Shown in pieces: positions 6,015 through 33,482 of a DNA stretch of 64,000 bases; within the stretch, counting starts at the first letter, position 1; the number at the start of each line of letters is the position of its first letter. Under the pieces are notes generated by a model. It was not told where the DNA came from. It saw only the letters and a list, made by a program, of their open reading frames with translations, and did no database searches. The translations under genes were made by a program, and so were the position numbers. The DNA comes from Aliamphritea spongicola (GTDB lineage: Bacteria > Pseudomonadota > Gammaproteobacteria > Pseudomonadales > Balneatricaceae): positions 4,712,001-4,776,000 of the forward strand of contig AP025283.1 in assembly GCA_024347235.1 (NCBI GenBank). The letters run 5' to 3'.

Positions 6015-6361
6015 GATCAGCGACCCCCAGATTTACTTTGATTGTTATTACCTGGTTGCCCTGTTGTACTGAGCGACTTCCCCGTCCCTTATCAGATGAA
6101 TCCTCATCCCAGAGGATGATTTCATTCCGCTGTACTGCAGCAACCAATGCTTCACTTCCCTGTCCACGCATACCTGCGAGATGCTCATCGGATAACAATT
6201 GACTCTCAAAAGAGTTACTTCAGACAGATCAAACAAAAATCTGCATCGGCCTCCAATGCCGCAGGCTGAGCGACAACACTGTTATGCCAACCGCCAACCA
6301 GCAGTGCTAATGCAGCTGCAGCCCGGGTAAGCGTTTTAGTGTTGAAATGAAAACTGCTCAT
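5995..6361 (-). CDS. Small secreted protein in the fapA position
   Basis: First gene of the operon, about 122 residues if one frameshift near 6220 is repaired. ATG at 6361 gives a clear signal peptide (RAAAALALLVGGWHNSVVA, then QPAALE). The mature part contains LLSDEHLAGMRGQG, EIILWDEDSSDKGRG and ends VADHDTLKD. In Pseudomonas the first gene encodes FapA, a small periplasmic factor; this gene occupies that slot, but I cannot confirm homology from sequence alone. LSDEHLAGMRGQG has the look of a double-glycine-type leader (LS-x-E-L-x-x-hydrophobic-x-G). It is worth noting next to a C39 peptidase. Confidence 0.6.
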
Positions 6362-6400
6362 TTTTCATACCTGCCTATCGTGTTATCTCGGGACAGGTAT

Positions 6401-6416
6401 TGCGAAAACGGGGCCA
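6401..6416 (-). promoter_or_regulatory. Sigma54-type promoter of the fap operon
   Basis: On the minus strand TGGCCCCGTTTTCGCA has GG and GC separated by exactly 10 bases and differs from the TGGCAC-N5-TTGCA consensus at two positions. It lies 40 bases upstream of the first fap gene. The enhancer-binding activator gene next door makes a sigma54 promoter expected. Confidence 0.68.
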
Positions 6417-6497
6417 GTTTTTATAACTATCTGTATTTAAAAGAATAAAATTCACAGAAAGGAATTCAGGCTCTGAAAAAGCCGTCAATCAGGTCGG

Positions 6498-6640
6498 AAA
6501 GTGTTACATTTGCCTAACACTCAACTTGTGTATGAATATTGAAATTCATATAAAACAGTCAGTTACAATCAAATAAAGATCTGTAACCAAAGTGTTACAG
6601 CAGTGATATACCCCATGCCTGTTGTTCTGAAAGTGTTACA
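6498..6640. promoter_or_regulatory. Three AAAGTGTTACA elements, likely activator-binding sites
   Basis: The 11-mer AAAGTGTTACA occurs exactly at 6498-6508, 6589-6599 and 6630-6640, all in the same orientation. The first faces a TAACACT half-site at 6515-6521. The second forms CTGTAAC-N6-GTTACAG (6581-6600). They lie roughly 80 to 240 bases upstream of the sigma54-type promoter, the usual place for enhancer sites. The VpsR-like regulator is the obvious candidate to bind (inference). Confidence 0.65.
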
Positions 6641-6685
6641 TATCTGAAACGCGCATATATCAAAAATCACATTAACTGCTTGATA

Positions 6686-6713
6686 AAGAAAAAGCCCGCA
6701 TTATGCGGGCTTT
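6686..6713 (-). terminator. Terminator of the VpsR-like regulator gene
   Basis: AAAGCCCGCA and TGCGGGCTTT form a 10-bp stem with a TTA loop. On the minus strand it runs into TTTTTCTTTATC. It isolates the regulator gene from the fap promoter. Confidence 0.85.
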
Positions 6714-6739
6714 AGTAGCAGATGTATCAGCTGAAACGG

Positions 6740-8120
6740 TCAGCTCACCATACTGCTGTCATCAAAACCGATTTCGTATTTCGCCAGTAACCGGTACAGC
6801 GTCACTCTGGACACACCTAAGGTCTTTGCTGCCTTGCTCATGTTAAAACGGCAATGCTGCAAAGCATTTTCAATGGCCTGGCGCTCCGCAACATTCCTGG
6901 CATCCGCCAACGACATCACATCCTTGGCGACAAAACCATCCACCAGTCCCAAGTCCATCGGACATACCAGCCGGCCCTCACACATCACCACCGCTCGCCG
7001 GATCCGGTTAATCATCTCCCGGACATTACCGGGCCAATCGTAGGCAGTCATTGCCTGCAACGCCTGCTTCGAAAAGCCTTTAATCTTGCCATGCCCTTCA
7101 CCGCGAAAATGCTGAAAGAAAACCGGGCCAGTAATTCAATATCATCATCCCGGTCCCGTAAAGCCGGTGGGCGAAGCTGCAAAACATTCAACCGATAGAG
7201 TAAGTCCTCACGGAATTTCTGTGCCTGAACCGCCTCATCGAGATCCACATGGGTTGCCGCCAGTACCCGGACATCCACCTTGATATCCCTGGTTGAGCCA
7301 ACCCGCTGGATCACCTGCTCCTGCAGAAATCGTAATAAATTCACCTGCAGCGGCATCGCCAGGTCACCGATTTCATCCAGAAACAAGGTGCCGCCATCGG
7401 CGGCTTCAATCCGGCCGATCTGTTTCTGAACCGCACCGGTAAAAGCGCCTTTCTCGTGGCCAAACAGTTCTGACTGAATCAGATGCTCAGGTAAAGCACC
7501 GCAGTTCACCGTGATAAAGGTTTACCGGCCCGGCTGGACCGTTCATGTACTGCACGGGCGATCAGTTCCTTGCCGGTTCCGCTTTCGCCGCGTATCAGCA
7601 CCGGTGCATCCACCGCCGCCACTTTGCGAATTCCACTGAATAATTTCAGCATCGACTGACTGGTACCTACCATGTGGTAGTCGTCGTAATGCCCTTCGGT
7701 CAGCTGCTTAGACAGGCTCGCCATTCCATAAGCATGTCCCAGCGTCGTGACCAGACTGGACACACCACCATCATCTAACGGCAGCGTGTAATAATCGTAA
7801 CAGGCGTGATGAATTAACTGGCAAAGGTCACTTTCATCCAGGCAACGGTGCCGGGTCAATAACAGCCACTCAGTGTTTTTATTACGCGCAAACAGATCAT
7901 CCGCGGCAAGCAGATCAGCCGTTTCAACCTGTTCAAGATGGACAATACCTACCCGGTAATCCTTAGGTCTGGCCTGTTGATGGGCCTGTTGAAATGTATC
8001 AACGCGGTCAACCCGCCACCCGTGTTCAGCAATTATTTCACTTAACTGTGTTGATCGGGACCCGGTCGTATCGACATAAAGTAATGGCCGCTCCTGATCA
8101 GAAACCAGCGAAGTATCCAT
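6740..8120 (-). CDS. VpsR-like sigma54-dependent transcriptional activator
   Basis: About 460 residues in three domains. Residues 1-140 resemble the degenerate receiver-like domain of Vibrio VpsR ([35 protein letters not shown]); VpsR binds c-di-GMP and controls biofilm genes. The AAA+ domain has Walker A GESGTGKE, the sigma54-contact loop GAFTGA intact, Walker [13 protein letters not shown] and [10 protein letters not shown] Fis-type helix-turn-helix ends the protein ([19 protein letters not shown]). An intact GAFTGA fits action at a sigma54 promoter. The gene lies directly upstream of the fap promoter region in the same orientation but with its own terminator. Frameshifts near 7510 and 7080. 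Confidence 0.85.
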
Positions 8121-28951: not shown

Positions 28952-29039
28952 TCAGTTAATTCCTCTTTTGATACTGCTAGGGGTATTTGCTGGGGCAAAT
29001 ACCCTGCTAATTCGACGTTTAGTGCTTATCGTTGTTAGT

Positions 29040-29285
29040 GTGCTGATTTTTTATTTCAGATAATCTTTTCGCTTACGCGACTCAAGACCTTTAAACGGCT
29101 AAAGGTCTTAAGAATCTAAAGGCCGCCCCACTACTCGCCTGGCTTCGCCAGGTTCCTGCGTGTTTCGCGAGCAACAGGCCTCCTGAAAACTCGACCGCTT
29201 CGCGCTCTCAAACAATTCATCCGGCTTATCTGTTACTCGCTGCAATACTCGGCTTCGCAGAAGGGGATCATCAGCCCGTGCCAAC
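29040..29285 (-). repeat. Structured interspersed repeat, copy 1
   Basis: About 246 nt, read on the minus strand from GTTGGCAC to AATCAGCAC. It shares the exact block GGGGCGGCCTTTAGATTC and TTAAGACCTTTAGCCG with copy 2. Hairpins seen in order: a long outer stem GCGAGTAACAG / CTGTTGCTCGC; CCTGGC-GAAG-CCAGG; AAGACCTTTA / TAAAGGTCTT; TCGC-GTAA-GCGA. It sits 88 bases beyond the stop of the ureidoglycolate lyase-like gene, facing it. No conserved reading frame is shared between copies. Confidence 0.82.
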
Positions 29286-29441
29286 GGAGAGGATTGATGT
29301 ATATCTATGGATTTCAAAGGTTTCGCTACGTATAGTCGATAGCAGATAACAGCATTAATTACCCACTCAATGCTTTCTCATCACCTAATCTAATGCGCCA
29401 AATAGCGCTACGGCTTTAACCATTTAAACTAAGGAAAGTTA

Positions 29442-30044
29442 ATGAAAGCTATTTACGCAATTGTATCCATACTCACCCTATCAGGCTGCGTTGCTACTCC
29501 ATCATTATCACCCAAAGTAGAATGGATTTCAAAAACGAATATTGATGAATTTACTGATAAACAAACATGCTCAGTAACGGTTGGTAGCCTCTATAGTCAA
29601 AACTCAGTTTACACGTACAACAATCACTATTATCCGTATATTGATGTTGTAAACGGTAAAGCTCGAGTTGGAATAAGAAGCGGGGAAAATTAAAATTCCT
29701 GTAGGCGATGTCCAAATAAGAATTGATAGCAACAAAGCCTGGACGATTAGCTCAAGCGAAACACCTTTAGATTACGTTCCTGAAGGAACAATGAGCTCTA
29801 TTGATGCATACGCAAAGAATCTACCTAAGCAGAATCAAGCACTTTTGAAAGATACGTATAAAACTACTATGGAAACTGCTGTCAAAGCGATGTCTCCTTT
29901 ACAGCTACAACAGGAAATAAAGCCAAAAACATTCTCCGTGAAATGCTCACTGGGGAAGTCATTAAATATCGGACGATTGGTCTTAACCAAGCAGCCTCAT
30001 CAACAGGTGAGTATAAACTAGGGAATCACTCAAAACTGCTCTGA
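29442..30044 (+). CDS. Putative lipoprotein in low-GC patch
   Basis: About 201 residues after repair of frameshifts near 29685 (GGGG run; restores RSGGKIKIPVGD) and 29905 (restores TGNKAKNILREMLTGEV). ATG after AAGGAAAG. Short lipoprotein signal with lipobox LTLSGCVA. The rest contains YTYNNHYYPYIDVVNGK, VQIRIDSNKAWTISSSE and an ending EYKLGNHSKLL. The family is not recognised. The base composition is clearly more AT-rich than the neighbours, and the gene lies between two inverted copies of the structured repeat, which suggests transfer as a unit. Confidence 0.6.
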
Positions 30045-30145
30045 AGCAGTGTGGAGTAGATATAGACCAAGAAGCCTAATCTTTCATTTATCTTAAGATC
30101 TAACATGGGGTAGCTCTTTCCTTTTTCCTAAACGCCCCACCTGCA

Positions 30146-30387
30146 GTTGGCACCCGCTTCCCCTTATGCGCAGCTGAGCAATGCAGGCATTGAATGATCA
30201 GCAGCGCAAACTGTTTGAAGGAGCGGAGCGACTGAGTTTTGTGCTGCCATTCAATGGCGAAACGCGCAGGGCACCCGGCGTAGCCGGGCAAGCATTGGGG
30301 CGGCCTTTAGATTCTTAAGACCTTTAGCCGTTTAAAGGTCTTGAGTCGACGAAGTCGAAAAGATTATCTGAATTAATAATTCAGCAC
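30146..30387 (+). repeat. Structured interspersed repeat, copy 2
   Basis: About 242 nt, GTTGGCAC to ATTCAGCAC, plus orientation, so inverted relative to copy 1. Hairpins: outer stem CATTGAATG / CATTCAATG (different sequence from copy 1 but still paired); CCCGGC-GTAG-CCGGG; AAGACCTTTA / TAAAGGTCTT; TCGAC-GAA-GTCGA; and CTGAATTA / TAATTCAG at the very end. The 3' end faces the stop codon of the diguanylate cyclase gene, 39 bases away. Confidence 0.82.
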
Positions 30388-30426
30388 TGAAACAGAGAAA
30401 AACTTACGACAAGAAATACAAAACCA

Positions 30427-32570
30427 TCAGAGTTGAACCTCAACTCGGTTCCGGCCACCCTCTTTGGCCCGATAAAGCGCCTCATCCGCTCTGGCAATAA
30501 TCGCCTCTATAGAATCGCCACTCTGCGACAGAGTAAAACCAAAACTGGCACTCACACTGCCCACGTCCTCAAACCCCTCACCGGCAATCTTCACCCGCAA
30601 CGCCTCCAGCAAAACAGTCACCACCTCAAGATTCGACTCAGGGAAAATAATAATAAACTCCTCCCTCCATAGCGGCCCACATAATCCGTTTTACGTAAAC
30701 TGCTCACCAGCAGCTCAGACACCGCGACCAGCACACTGTCACCCGTCTGGTGCCCGAAGGTATCATTCACCTGCTTAAAGTGATCGATATCGAGAATAGA
30801 CAGACAGAAATCCCGCTCAAACCGCTCTTTCCGGTCCAACTCGATTTGCAGTAGCTCTTCCAGCTTACGGCGGTTAAACAGACCGGTCAGGTTATCCGTC
30901 TGCGCGAGCCTCTCCAGTGCCTTATTCTTATCCTCAATATCCCTCTGCGCCTGCTTCAGCAGCTTATTGGCTTTGGTCACTTTGGTGTTCCAGTACATCA
31001 GCAGCAACACAATCAGCAACGCCACCAGAACCACTTCCCAGATCAGCTTATAATCGATGCCCTTCTCATATTTGATCGGAATCCACTTATTCAGAATCTT
31101 ACGGTGCAGCTCATTGGTAATGTTATTCACCGCCTTCTGCAGCACCGCCAGAAGCGTCTCATCATCGTTACGTACTGCAATAGAAAGCTTAAGCTTTTCA
31201 TTGATCTTGCCGGCAATCTTCAACTCACCGAAATACTGACTCTGGAACTCATAGCCAATGCTGGCCAGGGTATCGATAAAGCCAAACAGCTGACCATCTT
31301 TCACTTTATCCAGCCCCTCGTAGATATCATCTACCTCCACAAGCTCGAGCGAGGGATAGCGGCTTCGCAAGATATTCACAAAGGCGTCACCGCGGATAAT
31401 GCCAACCTTCTCCCCTTCCAGATCCAGAATGTGATTGATGAAAGGCACATCCACCCGGGTCGCCACCACCAGAGGCACTTCCAGATAGCTGCTGGTGAAG
31501 TTGAGATAACTTTTTCGCTCCGGGGTTTCCATGCCCAACGCCAGCATGTCACAGCGCCGCTGCTTTATATATTCCAGCGACTGGTTCCAGCTGTTAGTAC
31601 TGACCAGCTCAAATTTCGCAGACAGCATCTGGCTAAACAGCTGGTAATAATCCGCACTCATCCCTATGTGTTCGCCTTTCTCATTCAGCCCTTCGAAAGG
31701 CAGGCCCTTAGGGTTAATGCAGTATTTAATCCGGTTGGTATTTACGTACGCAATTTCATTCTTATTGAGCAGAATATGGCCGCCCACGTATTCTTTAATC
31801 GAGCCGATCCATTTATCACTTAATGCCGCTTTTTCCTGCTTCATCATGGCACTGAGCGTCTTCTGAACGATCGAGCTTAACAATGGCAGTTCAGGCTGAA
31901 TGCCAAAGCGCAGATCTTCCCGCTTAGTATTAGGCAGCGAAAGCTCGCTGGCCAGGGTGATATTCGTGTAAAGGTACTTCTTAATCAGATGGTTAATATT
32001 CGGCAGATTCTGCATCAGCGCATCTATCTTGCCGAAGACTAAATCTTTAGTAAGGGCATCATAGCTGTCGTAATACACCAGATTCAGATTACCTACTTTT
32101 TCAGTTCTTCGATATAGAACACATCTTTCAGCACCCCGACTTTCTTACCTTCCAGGCTTTGCAGACCTTTGTATTCACCAAAGTTATCTTTCACAAAGAT
32201 CATGATCGGAATGTTGTAATAGGGGCTGGTGAACAGGGTAAAAGGCTCGCGGTATTCCTTGTAGGAAATACTGCTGATCATATCCACTTCTTTGTTTTTA
32301 AAAGCGTTATAGATTGTGGTCCACTTATCGGTGCGGATTTCAAAGCGCAACCCGGTTTTCTCTGATATCAGCGCCAGCAGGTCATGTTCAAAACCCACCA
32401 GCCCGGCACCGGACTTATAAGAAAACGGCGTAAAGTCCGGCATCATCGCAACTTTGATCACCGGATGACTGGCAATGAAGGCCTGCTCTTCTTCAGTCAG
32501 CACAACCTCACTGGCCAGCGTACTGAACGAAAGGCACAGCATAAGAAACAATCGGGAAAAAGACCTTCAT
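30427..32570 (-). CDS. Diguanylate cyclase with two periplasmic solute-binding domains
   Basis: About 715 residues. ATG at 32570 and a signal segment (LFLMLCLSFSTLASEVV). Two tandem family-3 solute-binding domains follow: residues 25-250 (FTPFSYKSGAGLVGFEHDLL, KEVDMISSISYKEYREPF) and 265-490 (GMSADYYQLFSQMLS, LGMETPERKSYLNFTSSYL). Next a transmembrane helix (WEVVLVALLIVLLLMYW), a coiled coil, and a GGDEF domain (LTGLFNRRKLEELL, LDIDHFKQVNDTFGH). Repairing a frameshift near 30662 gives RYGGEEF, an active site, with an RKTD inhibitory site just before it. It should make c-di-GMP in response to an amino-acid-like ligand. Other frameshifts near 32555 and 32085. It may feed the VpsR-like amyloid regulator (inference). 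Confidence 0.88.
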
Positions 32571-32829
32571 TACAATCCTTGGTATATCACTATTTAAAGG
32601 CCAACAGACAACACGAACAGAAGAAATCCGCTCACCGTGCAGGCAGCATTAAATTTACCATTTAGTAAAGTAATTATCCCTACCCCGGCACTCACTCTGA
32701 TCAGTAAAAGCCCGACAACTGCTATACCACCAACCATGTACTATAAGTTCTTATAGTTCGAACCAGCCCTCAAAGTCACTGCCACTGCAGCCCCAGATAA
32801 ATAACGAAAGGAATCAGGTAGCTTGAAAC

Positions 32830-33066
32830 ATGATGGAATATTTAAAGAAATATGGATGGATAGCACTCACAGCAGTAATGGCCGATTTTGTTGCTTTCAT
32901 ATATTGGCAAAGCTATCTATCCACAGGATCAATTCATGACTCTAAACATAACTTCACATTTACCGGCGAAGCGGCACACTCTCTGCTTGCCATCATGACC
33001 CTGTTCGCAACTGTATGTACGTATTACTTTATAAAATCACTGATACTCTTCCACCGTAACCGCTAA
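32830..33066 (+). CDS. Small two-helix membrane protein
   Basis: 78 residues, unbroken, no recognised family. Two hydrophobic segments: WIALTAVMADFVAFIYWQSYL and LLAIMTLFATVCTYYFIKSLI, with basic ends (YLKKYG, FHRNR). A weak AGGTAGC site precedes the ATG. AT-rich like the surrounding patch and followed directly by repeat copy 3. The gene call rests on membrane character only. Confidence 0.5.
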   Translation: MMEYLKKYGWIALTAVMADFVAFIYWQSYLSTGSIHDSKHNFTFTGEAAHSLLAIMTLFATVCTYYFIKSLILFHRNR

Positions 33067-33128
33067 AGCAAAACAGAAATAAAGGAAAAAGAACTCTCTG
33101 TTTGCCTCTTCAGAACACCTCACCCACA

Positions 33129-33392
33129 GTTGGCACCCTGCTTCCCCTTATGCGCAGCCGAGCATCGCAGTTTTAAAATGGAGTAATGCGAGGACTGTCT
33201 GAGCGAAGCGGCCATCTGTTTTAAGGAGAGTGCAGCATCCATTTTAAAATGAGAAGCACAGAGCACACGGCGAAGCCGGGCAAGCATTGGGGCGGCCTTT
33301 AGATTCTTAAGAACTCTTTTGACAAGCTTTGGCCGTTACAAAAGTCTTGAGTCGCGTAAGCGAAAAGATCATCCGAAATAAAAATTCAGCAC
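33129..33392 (+). repeat. Structured interspersed repeat, copy 3
   Basis: About 264 nt, GTTGGCAC to ATTCAGCAC. It shares the 5' block CTTCCCCTTATGCGCAGC and the core GCATTGGGGCGGCCTTTAG with copy 2. The outer stem is now TTTTAAAATGGA / TCCATTTTAAAA. The later hairpin has become CTCTTTTG / CAAAAG around a longer loop that keeps GGCCGTT, and the last hairpin is TCGC-GTAA-GCGA. Its 3' end faces the phhB stop codon 90 bases away. Confidence 0.82.
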
Positions 33393-33482
33393 AACAATAG
33401 CGACACCAGCCAAACAATCAGCCCACTCAACCCCGAATACACATCTGCATGAAAGCGCTGAGTAACAGTCAAAAGAACAGAA

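Follow-up and report, generated by a model that had tools for sequence, protein, structure and literature searches.

Folded repeats bordering variable genes in Aliamphritea spongicola and other Gammaproteobacteria: possible arms of an exchangeable gene cassette

Three stretches of a 64,000-nucleotide window of Aliamphritea spongicola DNA (contig AP025283.1, positions 4,712,001 to 4,776,000) share their ends and a core but carry stems that differ in sequence while still pairing, which raises the question of what keeps this fold and what the repeats do at the locus. The copies at 29040-29285 on the minus strand and at 30146-30387 and 33129-33392 on the plus strand are all present, as are the stems quoted for them in a preliminary description. 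By covariance model the same genome holds 17 copies, two of them partial, and a DNA search finds another copy with an E value of 2e-79, which is far above chance. The covariance model of the repeat, R1, has 217 positions, and the repeats themselves, here called arms, measure ~240-290 bases. TCAGCAC, which the preliminary description took for one end of the copies, is present, but the 3' end common to the family continues for ~25-30 bases beyond it (by eye), and alignments across relatives show that the inner flanks preceding GTTGGCAC are common to family copies as well.

On the strand that reads 5' CCCC...GGGG...CTCG... the arm forms an outer stem, P1, around a long hairpin in two parts, P2-P3, which is capped by P4, and around the small hairpin P5; P6 and P7 come next. 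The alignment A2 comprises 53 of the 67 copies that passed length and score cuts, copies below 120 bits and L098-L103 having been excluded earlier. In it 90.8% of the cells are paired as against 71.4% in shuffled and 33-47% in slid controls, covariation is 0.528 as against 0.182 shuffled and 0.08-0.10 slid, and two-sided changes occur in 42 of the 52 pairs, which bears out the initial claim of a structured family with compensating stem changes. Across the class, 72 distinct rows are 93.1% paired and all 52 pairs have two-sided changes, in an alignment that was fitted to the model. Outside helix P3, cells with G.T exceed those with A.C by 125 to 16, or 83 to 16 when one fixed T.G pair is omitted, and the class-wide figures are 142 and 35; P3 shows the reverse, with 53 A.C and 34 G.T, probably as a result of its poor alignment. 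Selection in favour of the fold of one strand is supported.

The tips of the hairpins suggest which molecule folds. A C-GNA-G loop is found at P4 in 43 and at P5 in 44 of the 53 copies, and of the triloop hairpins 74 of 124 and 48 of 118 have a GNA loop, where the shuffle means are 3.75 and 5.7 and the complement gives 5 and 8, although these counts are not independent because the copies are related. Most of the small loops are GNA or GNNA, an enrichment confined to one strand, and loops of these kinds are described as extra-stable DNA minihairpins (PMC4686876). From the presence of tight loops of this kind we infer that the folded form under selection is single-stranded DNA. RNA accepts G.U pairs and can form GNA triloops too, so that the folded molecule may also be RNA.

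The arms have a preferred order. Among 360 copies in 31 genomes, neighbours within 5 kb are arranged head to head in 65 cases, tail to tail in one and in tandem in 28, and the excess of head-to-head over tail-to-tail order has a binomial probability of 2e-18 when the pairs are treated as independent. The interior of these head-to-head pairs is a short linker of 34-344 bp in 38 of the 65 and a segment of 0.66-4.9 kb, mostly cargo genes, in the other 27. All 13 pairs of G205 combine two arm types, A and B (by eye). Many copies of the family are single, and G047, with 47 copies, has just three head-to-head neighbours within 5 kb.

In the window, the first two copies are the two arms of one head-to-head pair around a cargo and the third is a single copy. 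The left arm, of A type, occupies 29012..29285 on the minus strand, with its R1 core at 29059-29272 and the common 3' end reaching ~29012 (by eye). Its inner flank, 29286..29337, is common to the orthologous arms in G001, G002 and G012, where local alignments end at 29337, 29337 and 29339, respectively. The cargo segment, 29338..30111 on the plus strand, is occupied by other genes in the relatives and here contains ORFs at 29442-29693 and 29791-30021, which are probably one frameshifted small lipoprotein-like gene. It is followed by the inner flank of the B arm, 30112..30145, with alignments to the orthologous arms that start at 30116 (G001), 30108 (G002) and 30112 (G012), and by the right arm itself, of B type, at 30146..30416 on the plus strand (R1 core 30154-30368; common 3' end to ~30416, by eye). 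The single copy lies at 33129..33420 on the plus strand, with an R1 match at the same place and an end near CGACACCAGCCAAAC (by eye), and adjoins a 78-aa ORF at 32830..33066 on the plus strand, a place where G001 has other ORFs. Its P6 hairpin carries an apical extension that is common to its orthologue (L071 8625), and it looks partly decayed; its fold is weak (z -0.26 as DNA and -1.1 as RNA) compared with the other two window copies (-2.4 to -4.5). The window contains no tRNA that could serve as a target. The preliminary description has neither the head-to-head pairs with their cargo nor the distinction between A and B arms, nor the module swapping treated below.

With this arrangement in hand, it may be asked whether the arms are elements of RNA, transcribed outward and acting for instance as a terminator, insulator or stabiliser around foreign genes, with the variation in cargo marking no more than tolerant sites. 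This rival, which takes up the small RNA proposed at the outset, is judged unlikely. The covariation, the tolerance of G.U on one strand and the conserved unpaired motifs do fit a structured RNA, and some single arms of G205 directly precede terminator-like hairpins (by eye); yet the triloops are GNA with any N, the GNNA tetraloops lack the purine bias of GNRA at position 3 (12/19 and 9/18), UNCG is absent, and two divergent transcripts would need to start inside linkers of ~39 bp. Nor is there an Rfam relative, as Rfam 15 gives no match in the window at the gathering score and, at E<=10, none over an arm in five loci. The repeat family is apparently unnamed, as first supposed, and in open-access PMC papers, at the level of title and abstract, no account was found of paired structured arms with cargo, although a description elsewhere is possible.

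The family extends well beyond the genus. R1 was run on other genomes, as the preliminary description had suggested, and matches at least 28 of the 143 Gammaproteobacteria that were sampled, this genome being one of the 28. Copies were listed at E<=1e-5 from up to 150 scored candidates per genome, whereas the class scan scored 16 candidates per genome and the phylum-wide scan nine, so that absences in these scans are weak evidence. Three queries gave no DNA match in phages, and one arm pair is carried by an IMG/VR contig. DNA searches of plasmids gave no match to an arm; in a further one 12 records matched over ~45-60 bases only, at the P6 hairpin, and among the four of these that were run against R1 there was one match, in a 4.9-Mb record of Aeromonas caviae.

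What lies between the arms differs in composition from its surroundings and varies between species. The 859-bp interior in the window has a GC content of 38.8%, and 12 interiors range from 33.0 to 41.9% with a mean of 38.2%, compared with 53.3% for the window. Across 480 bases the window cargo shares 66% DNA identity with a hypothetical gene on the Alteromonas macleodii plasmid pMIT1002. At the window locus three cargoes occur between kept arms in four closely related species, and at the his locus each of four species has a distinct interior between homologous arms, the main flank alignments being 81-92% identical and shorter pieces down to 70%. The cargo kinds comprise toxin-antitoxin, HNH, RT-protease and DUF proteins. 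The RT in the cargo of L202 was considered as a sign of a retron-like origin, which was rejected, since its match is to the defence-type protein RT-Protease XI and it was seen at a single locus. A Pfam search of 30 proteins, 28 of them from interiors, and of the window ORF found no recombinase or transposase, and hence no mover is in sight among the proteins searched. Single arms can differ in presence too: the orthologous sites of G001 and G002 lack the single copy that G000 has as L037, and its comparison with these two empty sites, whose flanks have diverged, shows no target-site duplication by eye.

At the window locus the alignments end within two bases of each other on the left and eight on the right in three comparisons, but a paralogous copy in G001 ceases to match at 30113, and the coincidence may therefore merely mark the end of the conserved flank of the arm. 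At the his locus the inner edge common to the species is variable and measures between 8 and 156 bases on the left side and between 0 and 39 on the right. At tdh, G000 and G012 have ~270 bases of interior in common. These observations are also compatible with ordinary homologous recombination.

Parts of the arms are exchanged between copies. The P2-P3 module of the left arm at 29040 is near-identical (score 0.98) to one found elsewhere in this genome, whereas the orthologues of this arm in three relatives hold a different one. The reading of the stem differences as compensation stands in so far as stepwise compensatory changes are seen, but part of them is replacement of the whole P2-P3 module. 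Of 43 arms, 37 could be tested because they have a partner at their own locus in another species; such a partner is the nearest neighbour of the 3' half of the arm in 12 tests and of P2-P3 in 16. These low counts favour an explanation in which the repeats are passive and dispersed, descended from a REPIN-like miniature element that has lost its mobiliser, in which RecA-type recombination between the many copies swaps the cargo and converts the modules and the fold is a relic of earlier mobility. Head-to-head doublets are the order reported for REPINs (PMC3116915), and the Y1, integrase and cargo Pfam searches revealed no enzyme. A relic would lose its fold, however, and here two-sided changes preserve it, both in the 53 copies and, in the model-fitted alignment, class-wide; the close ends of the window-locus alignments likewise speak against passivity, though perhaps they are just the arm end. 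On balance, passive repeats are considered somewhat unlikely.

The explanation preferred here is that the repeats may well be the borders of a non-autonomous, exchangeable gene cassette, arms that fold as single strands and are moved by an enzyme in trans or by host recombination. A complete cassette of this kind would consist of two head-to-head arms, their 3' ends pointing away from each other, that enclose either a short linker or one or a few foreign genes. The enclosed gene would be inserted, removed or swapped by an enzyme acting in trans, or by strand exchange and annealing on the part of the host, with the folded arms or their common inner edges as substrate.

One candidate enzyme would be a Y1 transposase, with the arms as Y1/HUH element ends (IS200-IS605 or REP/RAYT) mobilised in trans, and a mobile-element end of the IS200/REP kind had indeed been put forward at the outset. 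That suggestion is supported in part, in that the copies border variable foreign genes and L037 is absent from two relatives, and hairpin-rich ends and inverted doublets do resemble REPINs, but a link to a Y1 transposase is not supported. Y1_Tnp (PF01797) has no match in the copy-rich genomes G000, G001, G002, G012 and G007, nor in G165 (32 copies), G173, G187 and G119, while the same-genus genomes G005, G006, G008, G010 and G014 have a Y1_Tnp match and no R1 match. Matches are present in the copy-bearing relatives G003, G004, G013 and G015 and, elsewhere in the class, in 14 of another 18 genomes with copies; within these 14, a transposase gene stands less than 1 kb from an arm in G150 only (positions by eye), where one of two such genes is a 258-aa ORF ~0.3 kb outside the arm and the other, of 147 aa, looks like a separate IS200 insertion. 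As the presence of Y1/RAYT does not track the repeat, its role as the present mobiliser in the genus is largely refuted, and Y1/HUH ends are a very improbable explanation overall. The integron integrase was rejected as a driver on the same grounds: TIGR02249 exceeds its cut-off in nine genomes out of 18, the copy-bearing G002 and G007 included, but in neither G000 nor G001.

If the cassette reading is true, many Gammaproteobacteria have, besides integrons, a second and dispersed platform for taking up single foreign genes. R1 makes its borders and cargo findable, and the stretches between the arms could then be mined for small defence and toxin genes whose function is unknown. The arms would, moreover, be a clear example from nature of evolution keeping a single-stranded DNA fold, with loops familiar to chemists as very stable DNA minihairpins. 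Only tentatively may this be extended to a class-wide form of cassette exchange apart from integrons, in which opposed, differently typed single-stranded DNA arms would turn many chromosomal loci into docking sites and an enzyme or host pathway that reads DNA structure would swap accessory genes, often for defence or toxin-antitoxin systems.

Several known systems share features with the arms. Mobile insertion cassettes are transposase-less elements with inverted ends that at times move a gene. MITEs are described in similar terms, as short or transposase-less, with inverted ends and at times moving a gene (PMC10969869). Unlike these, the arms have a conserved complex fold in place of plain terminal inverted repeats, one insertion, between diverged flanks, shows no target duplication by eye, and neither a parent transposon, in a search that was not exhaustive, nor a transposase among the searched cargo proteins was found. 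The intergenic repeats of Pseudomonas fluorescens, such as R26 (352 bp, 20 copies) and R200 (320 bp, 47 copies in SBW25), are similar in length and copy number, but their account, compared here by description, does not feature paired arms with cargo in the parts consulted (PMC2718517). REPINs and REP sequences with RAYTs are likewise dispersed extragenic hairpin repeats, non-autonomous, occurring as inverted doublets with a spacer and predicted to fold in single-stranded DNA or mRNA (PMC3116915; PMC6006769), and the arms resemble them in their inverted doublets (65 head to head against one tail to tail within 5 kb) next to many singles. In contrast to REPINs, the arms are several-fold longer, keep a fold of many helices, come in two types and have genes between them, and five copy-rich genomes of the genus are without a Y1 gene; REP sequences have tens of bases and a 5' GT[AG]G foot, whereas the ~240-290 bases of the arms show no invariant GTAG foot before the fold (A2, by eye). 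Integron cassettes are reported to carry small, mostly unknown genes, toxin-antitoxin and phage-related genes next to attC, a recombination site in which the folded strand counts for more than the sequence (PMC8618304). The arms are like attC in standing next to genes of such kinds and in that the fold of one strand is conserved over sequence, with DNA presumably the folded molecule. They differ in that two head-to-head arms enclose the cargo, where integrons line up their cassettes in tandem, each with a single attC, and in being longer sites at many dispersed loci; of the neighbours within 5 kb, 28 are in tandem and 65 head to head.

The repeats are a real, widespread and structured family that borders variable gene cassettes. 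The coordinates and quoted stems of the three copies in the preliminary description, a pair at 29040-29285 (minus strand) and 30146-30387 (plus) and a single copy at 33129-33392 (plus), were all confirmed in the window (G000:C1:4712001-4776000), and across the 4.99 Mb genome R1, a covariance model of the family, finds 17 copies, two of them partial. Rfam holds no family that matches the repeats. With the window's own genome counted, a plain DNA search gave matches in 14 of 95 genomes, and R1 found copies in 28 of 143 genomes sampled across the class and, in a shallow search of the phylum, in 6 of 249, all six belonging to the same class; among genus and family members 10 of 15 carry copies. 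The most R1 matches per genome are 47 (genome G047) and 37 (G205), and an uncultured Oceanospirillaceae MAG has the core motif in two of its contigs. DNA searches gave no match for a window arm, as one unit of the family is termed, in E. coli genomes, nor for three queries in phage records. A G205 unit matches 12 records of a plasmid collection, at the P6 hairpin only; four of these 12 were put to R1, which was negative for one each of Pseudoalteromonas, Burkholderia and Pasteurella and positive (E 4e-12) for an Aeromonas caviae record that is probably chromosome-sized, judging from its 4.9 Mb.

To assess the fold, 53 copies out of 67 selected, representing two genera within a single family, were aligned, and helices were derived from single-sequence folds. 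Helix P1 (CCCC..CTGC / GCAG.GGGG) encloses P2-P3-P4 and P5, and is followed by P6 and P7, the latter being left out of the pair counts because its lengths differ. Paired cells make up 90.8% of 2712, the weakest helix being P3 (72%), and two-sided changes occur at 42 of 52 pairs. The covariation score of 0.528 compares with 0.182 in shuffles, none of 500 reaching the observed value, and with 0.08-0.10 when partners are slid, a control biased in favour of the structure because this was derived from the same alignment. An R1 alignment that draws on 45 loci with 81 matches, of which 72 rows are distinct, and that was itself fitted to the model, has 93.1% of cells paired and two-sided changes at 52/52 pairs. 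By eye, different copies have in apical P3 a recurrent insert some two dozen bases long (the G001 left arm at the his locus, L075; the G012 right arm at the tdh locus, L078; L097 3254), and in the window's genome two extra copies of the arm's initial ~75 bases (L038 3312-3387 and 3452-3529) precede a full arm as a ~140-bp tandem.

In each of six comparisons, folding relative to shuffles is better for the arm strand than for the complementary one, although that of the second copy also folds well (z -2.9 and -3.2), and mismatches are strand-biased, G.T outnumbering A.C by 125 to 16 outside P3 and by 142 to 35 class-wide, with the bias reversed inside P3 (34 vs 53). The folding molecule is therefore probably the arm's own strand. 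GNA triloops closed by C-G cap P4 in 43 and P5 in 44 of the 53 copies; GNA loops are enriched over shuffles about twenty-fold in the family and eight-fold in the class, and their number on the complement is close to that in shuffles. In GNNA tetraloops, position 3 shows no bias towards purines, and UNCG loops are absent. According to PMC4686876, DNA minihairpins with GNA or GNNA loops are of extraordinary stability, and these loop types are moderate evidence, short of proof, for single-stranded DNA as the folded form.

A set of 31 genomes yields 360 R1 matches (258 from 19 genomes, 102 from the other 12). Neighbours within 5 kb are head-to-head, with their 3' ends outward, in 65 cases, tandem in 28 and tail-to-tail in one; the head-to-head pairs are partly non-independent, as 13 come from G205 and some loci are common to G000 (the window's genome) and its close relatives G001, G002 and G012. 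Of the 65 head-to-head pairs, 38 have gaps of 34-344 bp and the other 27 have gaps of 663-4918 bp; the window pair has a 0.86 kb interior. As judged by eye, all 13 G205 pairs combine one CCCTTCTATGCGG-like and one CCCCTTTTGCGCAGC-like arm in either order, and in 12 the linker is 38-45 bp long and has ends in common. An IMG/VR contig of putative viral nature carries a head-to-head pair with a gap of 36 bases (L235 884-1312). Unpaired single arms are also common; those of G205 L184-L189 form by eye a separate subfamily (P6 GTCTATTTTTGATGC..TCAAAAATAGAC), several directly preceding terminator-like hairpins.

The interiors were read for ORFs, and 30 proteins (28 interior, two beside single arms) and the window ORF were searched against Pfam. 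No family was found for the window ORF or, above cut-off, for 15 of the 30, and none of the 30 is a recombinase or transposase. Families above cut-off are BRCT, HNH, DUF1493, DUF6119, YefM, YoeB, DKNYY, DUF4760, T5orf172, ion channel, methyltransferase, M24 peptidase, pentapeptide repeats and DUF4145, the last in a protein that is weakly PD-T7-4-like in PADLOC, to which 20 of the 30 were submitted. Pfam's RT and trypsin families were also above cut-off, in a reverse transcriptase-trypsin fusion between two arms of G047 (L202 2055-3932, minus strand), which PADLOC identified as RT-Protease XI (E 8e-188). The GC content of 12 genus interiors is 33.0-41.9% vs 53.3% for the window, and over 480 bases the window cargo is 66% identical at the DNA level to a hypothetical plasmid gene of Alteromonas macleodii.

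At the window locus arms and outer genes are homologous in G000, G001, G002 and G012, and the cargo comprises lipoprotein-like ORFs in G000, a BRCT gene in G001 and G012 and an HNH gene in G002. Aligned with its orthologous arms in the three relatives, G000 matches as far as 29337, 29337 and 29339 on the left and again from 30116, 30108 and 30112 on the right; the match to a paralogous G001 arm ends at 30113, and these junctions may therefore mark the end of the arm and not a crossover. Short gene-start remnants, seen by eye beside the type A arm, point to replacement of a former cargo. The his locus has four interiors in four species between homologous arms, with inner edges of 8-156 (left) and 0-39 bases (right) in common. 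The tdh locus is mixed: about 270 interior bases are common to G000 and G012, and a toxin-antitoxin stretch is common to G002 and G012 in arrays built differently. When arm segments were matched (n=37), the best match came from the same locus of a different species for 27 inner flanks, 22 5' ends, 16 P2-P3 segments, 12 3' halves and 20 outer flanks. The arms exchange parts among themselves, and the stem contrasts first read as compensating changes are thus in part module swaps.

A single copy in G000 (L037) has a stop codon on one side and a terminator-like hairpin on the other, and is missing from the corresponding site in G001 and G002, while in G012 the flanks lie 89 bases apart, too close to hold a copy; no duplication was seen at this insertion, though the flanks are diverged. 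In the window a solute-binding/GGDEF protein is broken into two frames (30618-32078 and 32093-32551, minus strand), its counterpart in G001 being an intact 715-aa ORF (L071 5567-7714); several window genes are apparently frameshifted, consistent with a genome completeness of 78%. Adjoining the orthologue of the third copy in G001 are two small ORFs (L071 7925-8576, minus strand) that by eye resemble a toxin-antitoxin pair of the RelB/DinJ-YafQ kind; the corresponding place in the window is occupied by a 78-aa ORF.

No match to the Y1 family PF01797 was obtained in G000, G001, G002, G012 and G007 or in four of 18 further copy-bearing genomes; other copy-bearing relatives do have one. In G150 a 258-aa Y1 transposase-like ORF lies ~0.3 kb outside an arm (L149 ~6300-7322; C11:114300-115321). 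No integron integrase was found above cut-off in G000 and G001; the copy-bearing G002 and G007 have one. In how it works the family resembles a cross of REPINs and integron cassettes, and it fails defining tests for each.
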